NCBI RefSeq assembly: GCF_000372845.1 | Contig: NZ_KB889963.1 | Coordinates: 2,624,304-2,688,303, forward strand | Length of the DNA: 64,000 bases | From: Methylocystis rosea SV97 | GTDB taxonomy: Bacteria > Pseudomonadota > Alphaproteobacteria > Rhizobiales > Beijerinckiaceae | Direction: 5' to 3' | Part shown: positions 43,242 to 45,144 of the stretch, piece after piece | How the letters are laid out: each line of letters starts with the position of its first letter | How positions within the stretch are numbered: position 1 is the first letter of the stretch | Program-made: the position numbers and the translations under genes | Notes under the pieces: model-generated | Told to the model about the DNA's origin: nothing | Databases searched by the model: none | Seen by the model: only the letters and a program-made list of their open reading frames with translations

Positions 43242-43675
43242 ACTGCGTTCAGAGCGAGTCTGGCGCCCAACTTGCGAATCCTGGCGCGCAAGTTGCCCGT
43301 GATGAGTTTCCACATCCTTAATTAATCTAAAATGTAAGGCATGATAATAAGTTAGCGTAGTTTGCGGTCTCAGCGCAGGCGCCGCTCGCGCGCATATGCC
43401 TTTGATTTTCACGTGTGGGCGTGTTATAAATCACACACTAAATGCACGCCTTGTCGAAGGGGCGATGCGGCGCCAGTCACCGTCTCGCGACAAATTCGAA
43501 AGCCTCTCTTCTCGAGGGCCGGCTGGTTGGTCGGCTGTTGGGTATGCGGCGCTAGCAAGGTTTCCACTAGCTGCCTTCGCGGCGCCTCCGTGGCTTTTTC
43601 GCCGGCGGTATGCGCGAGTCGTCAGGCAGCGATGGTCCCGTCTCCACAGCGGGACAGCATAGGAGTAGCCCGCGT
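43242..43675 (+). other. carD upstream region
   Basis: 434 bp without a gene. An AT-rich block at about 43311-43360 and a TTATAAATCACAC stretch near 43430 suggest promoters for carD. Confidence 0.35.
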
Positions 43676-45103
43676 ATGCCCTCCAACAAAACCGAGAAAA
43701 AGTCGCCTGCGACTGCCTCCTCCGCAGCAGCACGCGGCAAGGGCTCGGCCGCTCGCTCCAAGACGCTCGCTAAGCGAGCCACCAAGAGCGGCGCGACGAA
43801 AACCGCCGCAGCGAAGAATTCGACATCGAAGAAGCCGGCCAGCCGCTCCGCCTCGGCAGCAAAGCCCGCGCGCGCCGCCGCCGCTTCGAGCCGGAAAGCA
43901 AGCGCAAAAACCTCCGCAAAAGCCGCGAGAACGATGACAGCCAAAACAACGACGACGAAATCGAAATCAACGGCAAAAGACAAGACCGCCAAGACCCCGG
44001 CGCGCGCCACGGCGACGCGGCGGACTGCGAGCGCTCGCAGCGTTGCCCGCGCCTCCGCAGCTAAGCCGGCGGCGAAGTCGACGAGCGCCAAGACTGCGGC
44101 CGCAGGCAAGACTGCGGTCGCCGGTAAGAGCGCGACGAAGCGCGCCGTGGCCGCGAAGGCGGCCAAAACGGCGGTGGAAAAGGTGAGCGCCAGCGCAAAG
44201 ACGCCGGCGGCGAACCCAGTCACGCCCAAGACCGCGGCGGCGAAGCCCGCCGAAGCGGCGACGCCGACGGCAGCGGTCAAGCAGCCGGTGGCCAAGCAGC
44301 CGGTGGCCAAGCAGCCGGTGGCCAAGCAGCCGGTGGCGAAGCCCATCGAGCAGAAGCCGGCGGCGCCAGTCGCGCCTGCGGCGGCAAAGCCGCGTCCCCT
44401 CGTGGAGGCGGAGCCGAAACCCGTTGGAGAGACGGTCGAGCCCCCGCCCCTAGCGACTTCTCAGGAGCCCTCGGCGGCGCCCGGCGTCGGCGCACGACCG
44501 GGCATGCCCGCCAAGCCGAAGCCGGCGACGCCCTCCGCCAAGCCTGGTTTCAAGCTCAACGAATACATCGTCTATCCCGCGCACGGCGTCGGACAGATCG
44601 TCGGTGTGGAGACGCAAGAGGTCGCGGGCTTCAGCCTGGAGCTCTTTGTCGTGAGCTTCATCAAGGACAAGATGACCCTCAAAGTGCCCACCAGCAAAGT
44701 CGTCAGCGTCGGTATGCGCAAGCTCGCCGATACGGCCATCGTTGACAGGGCGCTGCAAACGCTGAGCGGTCGCGCGCGCGTCAAGCGCACCATGTGGTCG
44801 CGCCGCGCTCAAGAATATGAGGCGAAAATCAACTCGGGCGATCTCATCACCATCGCCGAGGTGGTTCGCGACCTGTACCGGTCCGATACTCAGCCCGAGC
44901 AGTCATACTCGGAACGCCAGCTTTACGAGGCCGCCTTGGACCGTATGGCGCGTGAAGTCGCCGCCGTGCGCAAGCTCATCGATTCGGAATCGCTGAAGTT
45001 GATCGAATCTTTTCTGCTGAAAGGCCCTCGCCGCGGGCCGAAGGCGGAGGGGGACGTGGGCGATGACGGCGGGGATGAGGCTGACGTGGACCGGGCCGCC
45101 TAA
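43676..45103 (+). CDS. carD: CarD-family regulator with long histone-H1-like N-terminal tail
   Basis: 475 aa from the ATG at 43676 with AGGAG upstream. The C-terminal about 180 residues are a CarD domain (FKLNEYIVYPAHGVGQIVGV, then KMTLKVPTSK and a helical DNA-binding part), which binds RNA polymerase and promoter DNA. The first about 290 residues are lysine/alanine/threonine-rich, like histone H1 or bacterial Hc-type tails. They include four KQPVA units encoded by a 15-bp tandem repeat near 44279-44340. Ordinary CarD proteins are about 170-200 aa. rpoH is convergent. Confidence 0.88.
   Translation: MPSNKTEKKSPATASSAAARGKGSAARSKTLAKRATKSGATKTAAAKNSTSKKPASRSASAAKPARAAAASSRKASAKTSAKAARTMTAKTTTTKSKSTAKDKTAKTPARATATRRTASARSVARASAAKPAAKSTSAKTAAAGKTAVAGKSATKRAVAAKAAKTAVEKVSASAKTPAANPVTPKTAAAKPAEAATPTAAVKQPVAKQPVAKQPVAKQPVAKPIEQKPAAPVAPAAAKPRPLVEAEPKPVGETVEPPPLATSQEPSAAPGVGARPGMPAKPKPATPSAKPGFKLNEYIVYPAHGVGQIVGVETQEVAGFSLELFVVSFIKDKMTLKVPTSKVVSVGMRKLADTAIVDRALQTLSGRARVKRTMWSRRAQEYEAKINSGDLITIAEVVRDLYRSDTQPEQSYSERQLYEAALDRMAREVAAVRKLIDSESLKLIESFLLKGPRRGPKAEGDVGDDGGDEADVDRAA
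44279..44340 (+). repeat. 15-bp tandem repeat inside carD
   Basis: Four near-perfect copies of AAGCAGCCGGTGGCC encode repeated KQPVA in the H1-like tail. Confidence 0.85.
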
Positions 45104-45111
45104 TCAGCAAT

Positions 45112-45144
45112 AAAAAACCCCGGAAGCGACTTCCGGGGTTTTTT
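45112..45144. terminator. Bidirectional terminator between carD and rpoH
   Basis: A perfect 15-bp stem (45112-45126 with 45130-45144) with a 3-nt loop, A-run on one side and T-run on the other, between convergent genes. Confidence 0.9.

Follow-up and report, generated by a model that had tools for sequence, protein, structure and literature searches.

The frame of 475 codons at the centre of this study lies in a stretch of 64,000 nucleotides from Methylocystis rosea SV97 (the window), and it raises two questions: whether the long sequence in front of its CarD core is really translated, and what such a tail would do on a protein of this family. Stand-alone CdnL proteins are reported to have 160-200 residues (PMC4374960), and the product, with its 475 aa, is outside this range. 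The features of the locus are as follows.

43635..43655, + strand: leader hairpin GTCCCG-TCTCCACAG-CGGGAC, its loop beginning 35 nt ahead of the start codon
43661..43665, + strand: Shine-Dalgarno-like AGGAG, read from the sequence
43676..45103, + strand: cdnL/CarD gene with tail, 475 aa plus stop (translation, Pfam)
43676..44320, + strand: basic tail residues 1-215, net charge +45, without secondary structure in the AlphaFold model
44278..44342, + strand: 15-bp tandem array reading KQPVA four times (TRF, 4.3 copies)
44321..44542, + strand: linker, tail residues 216-289, Pro-containing and nearly neutral (net +4)
44549..44725, + strand: CarD_TRCF_RID, residues 292-350 (Pfam PF02559), RNA polymerase beta binding expected
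44750..45004, + strand: CarD_C, residues 359-443 (Pfam PF21095), containing the invariant W374
45026..45100, + strand: acidic C-terminal 25 residues, net -4, ending in AA

Domain layout and genomic setting

In the Pfam scan of the 475-aa protein CarD_TRCF_RID (E 5.3e-12) and CarD_C (E 8.1e-23) were both above the curated cut-off and stood in the domain order of CdnL and CarD-like proteins, and a PDB search matched residues 290-446 to solved CarD family proteins; in NCBIfam no family was listed for the full-length product. The preliminary description of this DNA, made from the letters alone, had placed a CarD domain behind a low-complexity, Lys/Ala-rich tail of about 60% of the product, and this layout was confirmed: the tail measures 289 aa ahead of the core, 61% of the protein. 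Trp374 was invariant in 37/37 aligned proteins and, by motif rather than structure, corresponds to W86, which is reported to be needed for CarD function (PMC8407463). The norm of 170-200 aa that had been assumed for CarD proteins agrees with the range reported in PMC4374960 and with the short-form relatives, where the start mostly stands 8-17 codons ahead of the core. Since this size is typical but not defining, the membership of the core in the CdnL group stands despite the 475 aa.

A profile search of the genome returned one CarD_C match, the 475-aa gene itself. The second RID match, the only other one, lies inside a 1182-aa frame, which is presumably Mfd, given its size and that Mfd proteins share this domain. 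The sole CarD_C match makes the 475-aa protein the only CdnL of the organism, and it presumably has a housekeeping role. CarD/CdnL has been proposed to support many alphaproteobacterial housekeeping promoters (PMC8407463).

The gene is preceded by a ferredoxin gene and followed by a convergent sigma-32 gene. Between the two convergent genes an inverted repeat with a T run was read by eye at 45116-45141; it looks like a bidirectional terminator and is absent from the pattern-scan list. On the - strand a 259-aa antisense open frame (43567-44346) runs across the tail, probably as a shadow of the tail codon bias. The three PF02461 (methane/ammonia monooxygenase subunit) matches of the genome suggest a type II methanotroph.

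Translation of the tail

The tail could be an artefact of the start site, with translation beginning near the core (e.g. at M277, window position 44504) and the upstream part forming an untranslated leader. An in-frame ATG is indeed present 13 codons ahead of the core, and alphaproteobacterial cdnL genes are reported to have often a long 5' leader (PMC5324124). We have therefore examined the locus across the genus, where a match was found in 37/39 genomes; of these loci, four (L004, L028, L063, L066) run into a contig end and 33 are complete.

An ATG with a Shine-Dalgarno-like motif stands at the beginning of the tail in 33/33 complete genus loci, with tails of 187-380 aa; start calls were made mechanically (the first ATG with such a motif, otherwise the first ATG), and in L024, which has a further ATG 35 codons upstream, the orthologous ATG was used for the tail length. 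The GGAG starts 14 nt before the ATG in 27/33 loci, 12 nt in 5 and 15 nt in 1. Near the core the situation is different: within 45 codons of it there is no ATG, GTG or TTG in 10/33 genus loci, an ATG is found in 11/33, and a start preceded by a Shine-Dalgarno-like motif in 8/33.

The pattern of change within the tail is that of coding sequence. The window was compared with 14 complete genus loci out of the remaining 32: dN/dS was 0.27-0.41 in the tail and 0.03-0.08 in the core. In part of the most divergent pairs dS was above 1, and these alignments were guided by the protein, a procedure biased towards the frame. The counts of indels and codon positions had no such guide. When the tail with 60 nt of leader was aligned as nucleotides, pair by pair, among the window and its seven nearest genomes, 196/202 indels were multiples of 3 (the same indel may enter several pairs), and third codon positions had more substitutions than first or second ones in 7/7 comparisons.

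The start downstream of the tail, which the preliminary description had named as the point against its own reading, is thus contradicted by the tail dN/dS, by indels that keep the frame, by the codon positions of the substitutions and by the Shine-Dalgarno-like motif, ATG and hairpin, all kept at the distal start; we reject the start-site artefact as very improbable. Taken together, dN/dS, in-frame indels and start conservation mean that the tail is almost certainly translated, and from these comparisons we put the probability that the 475-aa protein is a translated, tailed CdnL at about 0.95. The same comparisons show purifying selection on the tail despite its fast change in sequence and length.

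Composition and predicted structure of the tail

Residues 1-289 consist of 29.1% A, 15.2% K, 11.4% T, 11.4% P, 10.0% S and 5.2% R, with 3.4% D+E and no F, W, Y or H. In the tail K/(K+R) reaches 0.75, whereas the other open reading frames of the window have 0.26; D+E is 0.03 and 0.12, respectively, so the bias of the tail goes beyond regional usage. The AlphaFold model gives the tail a pLDDT of 42-52 without secondary structure, and the core is folded (blocks of 79-90 over 291-450, one block at 69); the tail is accordingly predicted to be disordered. The basic character ascribed to the tail holds for residues 1-215, and the last 74 residues proved to be nearly neutral.

The label "histone-H1-like" that the tail had received fits only in part. 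The Lys/Ala/Pro-rich, disordered composition of H1/HC2-like proteins is found here, with just 15.2% K, but the tail had no match in Pfam up to E 1 or among PDB chains up to E 0.01, the tail contains no RGRP AT-hook, [ST]PxK is not in excess, and no HC2-type gene was matched anywhere in the organism's own genome. These Pfam, PDB and RGRP searches thus gave no homology of the tail to H1, HC2 or AT-hook proteins. An origin of the tail by copying from another gene of its own genome was rejected on a search that returned the tail alone with E up to 10 (150/506 candidates scored).

Repeat growth and turnover of the tail

The 15-bp unit (4.3 copies, 98% matches) has a TRF score of 123, the highest of the 17 rows of the window, and the KQPVA repeats that the preliminary description had derived from four such units were recovered as described. 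Exact KQPVA, present 4 times here, is missing from all 32 further complete genus loci. At the position of the array, KQP-type units number two in L064 (KQPAAKQPTA), one in L067, L031, L065, L027 and L029, and none in L032; the alignment of the window tail with that of L067 has a 15-residue gap. Four units here against 2, 1 or 0 in seven near relatives indicate that the repeat has grown in frame recently in this lineage. The expectation that the unit number varies between strains is borne out as variation, and the variation seen is between species.

Similarity to the window tail beyond composition was high in three close relatives (z 33-69) and fell to z 1.1-7.6 in six other genus members. The 33 genus tails have K/(K+R) of 0.66-0.98 and net charges of +10 to +62, the low end being L009 with +10 over 187 aa. 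Further long tails of low net charge are those of L107 and L108 (K+R 0.17, D+E 0.13-0.14) and of L072 (K+R 0.11, D+E 0.12); these four count against a uniform charge requirement. The comparisons show that the tail sequence turns over fast while its composition mostly persists.

Distribution in Alphaproteobacteria

Comparing CarD lengths across related genomes, as had been proposed at the outset, showed the tail in every complete locus of the genus and again elsewhere in the class. The family survey gave a match in 148/149 genomes; 56/149 family rows, by a manual count, have a frame of 320 aa or more, which is a proxy and no tail call (L057, with 330 aa, is a short form). Among the fetched family loci many genera have long tails and many others, including many close members, have short forms. 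The order survey gave a match in at least 214/219 genomes and the class survey in 129/144. Tails of about 60-85 aa are found in Bradyrhizobium and its relatives, and longer ones in several other groups. Thirteen class-level loci outside the order were chosen for frames above 300 aa: 10 have a basic tail of more than 100 aa (four with an ATG lacking a Shine-Dalgarno-like motif, one with GTG alone), and the remaining three (L232, L234, L237) are short or have an ambiguous start. Among the best 20 further loci of the class score list, Lys/Ala/Pro-rich upstream frames occur in two: in L258 an ATG opens the tail, and in L275 there is no such ATG in the stretch fetched.

Tail labels were given by a rule of composition and start, after which manual revision assigned 24 loci to the tailed class and L217 to the short one; 12 loci with ambiguous starts were left unlabelled (L147, L148, L149, L153, L155, L156, L157, L161, L174, L202, L232, L237). 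Nine loci were dropped from the final tree of the core for being edge-cut, long-branched or duplicate, identical cores were entered once, and of the own genus seven rows were retained; this gave 198 rows, 99 tailed and 99 short. On it the tail trait changed at least 13 times, four of these within the family of the window; the tree is built on about 165 protein columns and many of its branches are weak, gains are not separable from losses on it, and its order- and class-level loci were largely chosen for long open frames. The 20 class-list loci had been entered as short without a start call, and relabelling L258 and L275 lowered the number of changes from 14 to 13; with a threshold of 100 aa for the tail it is 14. 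Labels shuffled on a nearly identical set of 199 rows gave a mean of 66.9 changes and a minimum of 58. Thirteen changes against this mean indicate that the tail follows lineage, yet has changed many times. The survey thus shows, at the level of sequence, a tail that is fixed in the genus (33/33 complete loci) and recurrent in several alphaproteobacterial families.

Several single loci deserve mention. One genome (G150) has two CarD proteins, one with a 357-aa tail and one divergent and short (L070 and L071), the short one identical to the window core at 63/159 core positions. In L147, L149, L153, L155 and similar loci a start at the usual place, about 10 codons from the core, is accompanied by an in-frame ATG further upstream, which opens a basic stretch of 55-56 aa; either of the two may be the start in use. 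A record titled Candidatus Hydrogenedentota (L173) has a CdnL like that of the Bradyrhizobium group, and its contig is probably mis-binned.

A hairpin in the cdnL leader

The loop motif T[CT]TCC was found 20-42 nt ahead of the start in 29/33 complete genus loci (missing in L005, L007, L013 and L069), and in 58/139 tail-labelled loci against 3/89 short-labelled ones. For the covariation analysis tailed loci were picked by the loop motif alone, giving 41 distinct sequences. The cells of the 6-bp stem had standard pairs in 96.3% of cases, against 84.2% in shuffles and 31-52% when the stem was slid; the shuffle test is inflated by relatedness, which the slid control retains. Stem cells changed on both sides numbered 31 against 8.3 in shuffles (0/500 shuffles as high), and stem pairs with a two-sided change 4 against 2.6 (reached in 52/500). 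An earlier scan had looked for this type of loop on a stem of 6 bp or more. It recovered 57/240 loci, some of which are one place fetched twice; the hairpin was at -21 to -37 in 53 tailed loci, at -32 in the short L197, and far upstream in the other three.

A generic folding test just upstream of the Shine-Dalgarno motif gave no separation (mean z -0.70 in tailed, n=124, vs -0.87 in short, n=87), so the case for the hairpin rests on covariation. Rfam searches with gene and leader gave only matches far below the gathering scores. In its own genome the 15-base hairpin motif occurs exactly once, and with up to 2 mismatches 17 times against 14 in the reversed control. The CUCC of the UCUCC-containing loop is complementary to the GGAG of the Shine-Dalgarno motif, and our guess is that the hairpin might act in translation through this pairing. 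In 25 aligned genus leaders conservation peaks around the hairpin, the Shine-Dalgarno motif and the ATG (0.82-0.89 per 20 nt). Two further conserved blocks were seen in these leaders, at 43306-43325 (about -370, 0.81) and 43546-43565 (about -130, 0.85), both on the + strand.

Possible function of the tail

In the mechanism that we propose the core, as in the CarD family, would bind RNA polymerase beta and stabilize the open promoter complex, residues 1-215 (+45) would form an arm that is disordered and binds DNA non-specifically, and residues 216-289 would be a spacer between this arm and the core. The preliminary interpretation, in which the tail adds non-specific DNA binding or compaction to open-complex control, is supported in part, through translation and composition. 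The arm would hold CdnL near the nucleoid and promoter DNA, which could give a higher local concentration or an extra DNA contact, like the HMGA-/H1-like domain of myxobacterial CarD, and selection would keep tail length and charge rather than the exact sequence. That DNA tethering is the main role of the tail we regard, on analogy, as an evenly balanced proposition: the preference for lysine over arginine beyond regional usage speaks for it, and the nearly uncharged long tails (L009, L107, L108, L072), the lack of H1, HC2 or AT-hook homology and the tail-less close relatives speak against it.

The nearly uncharged tails would suit another role, in which the tail serves chiefly as a spacer (entropic or for solubility) or gives a hold for CdnL turnover or control, its charge being incidental. 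The fast turnover of the tail, its local tandem arrays and a likeness to tails from other genera that barely goes beyond what composition gives (18 loci, z -0.3 to 5.9) point the same way, but purifying selection on the tail and the preference for lysine in a GC-rich setting argue against it, and we consider such a role rather doubtful. Instead of DNA, the basic tail might bind a different polyanion, be it RNA, polyphosphate or a storage granule, and take CdnL as partner into storage or stress control: the KPAA-repeat protein AlgP is reported to be associated with granules of polyphosphate, and PhaF has a similar domain that is believed to anchor PHA granules on DNA (PMC9239181). For a tail on an RNA polymerase factor, however, DNA is the nearest polyanion, and the Pfam scan of the 475-aa protein revealed no granule domain; this explanation seems unlikely. 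An N-terminally FLAG-tagged CdnL was reportedly unable to replace the native protein in Caulobacter (PMC5324124). N-terminal additions can thus harm CdnL in that organism, which makes a natural addition of 289 residues notable and an inhibitory role of the tail possible.

Starting from DNA tethering, one may speculate that Alphaproteobacteria repeatedly made CdnL nucleoid-tethered through a basic arm, that slippage-tuned length and charge set the coupling between transcription and DNA, and that the hairpin controls supply in a part of the tailed lineage; as a whole this picture is rather doubtful. An arm that is fixed in the genus, evolves fast and has often been altered across the class would be a series of natural experiments on the non-specific DNA affinity of a general transcription factor. 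The locus is also a warning that cdnL start codons are open to mis-calling.

Comparison with known systems

The closest known arrangement is that of myxobacterial CarD, which, like the tailed CdnL, is reported to join an RNA polymerase-binding domain to a disordered, Lys/Ala/Pro-rich basic domain (PMC4374960, PMC9304148). The HMGA-like domain of M. xanthus CarD binds DNA and maximizes CarD activity (PMC4374960), and H1-like domains are reported in two other myxobacterial CarDs (A. dehalogenans, V. incomptus) (PMC9304148). RGRP AT-hooks mark the HMGA type and are absent from the window tail, as they are from the H1-like type. Garcia-Heras et al. (2009) reportedly found, according to their title, HMGA- and H1-like domains to be functionally equivalent. 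The basic domain is C-terminal in myxobacterial CarD, whereas it is N-terminal here and the C-terminus is acidic. Myxobacteria, moreover, have a CdnL besides CarD, and their CarD acts together with CarG, while here the tail is on the only CdnL; CarD and CarG have been reported in Cystobacterineae alone (PMC9304148). A search of the organism's own genome for PF07998 (archaemetzincin), a profile that may not detect CarG, gave no match.

With Caulobacter crescentus CdnL the protein shares the alphaproteobacterial core. All 33 genus proteins end in AA, with a net charge of -11 to -3 over the last 25 residues, and this C-terminal AA matches the degradation signal reported for Caulobacter (PMC5324124). 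Like the tail, AlgP and PhaF of Pseudomonas are Lys/Ala/Pro-rich and disordered, with short tandem repeats. Variation of the algP repeats was reportedly described by Deretic and Konyecsni (1990), to judge from the title. AlgP differs in that its domain, made of KPAA units, is C-terminal to a different, helical domain and stands outside the CarD-family polymerase factors; peptides of its KPAA repeat are reported to bind DNA (PMC9239181). The C-terminal domain of eukaryotic histone H1 is, like the tail, basic, Ala- and Pro-containing and disordered, but there is no sequence match between them in Pfam or PDB. That domain is also richer in lysine than the tail.

No description of an N-terminally tailed CdnL was found in the literature searched, which excluded most subscription papers, and the section of PMC5324124 on CdnL conservation in Alphaproteobacteria makes no mention of an N-terminal tail. 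A CarD joined to a histone-like tail is known; what is new here is the reversed order, the position on the genome's only CdnL and the recurrence in Alphaproteobacteria. An open-complex factor joined to a histone-like tail in the opposite order to that of myxobacterial CarD points to convergent evolution of the combination.
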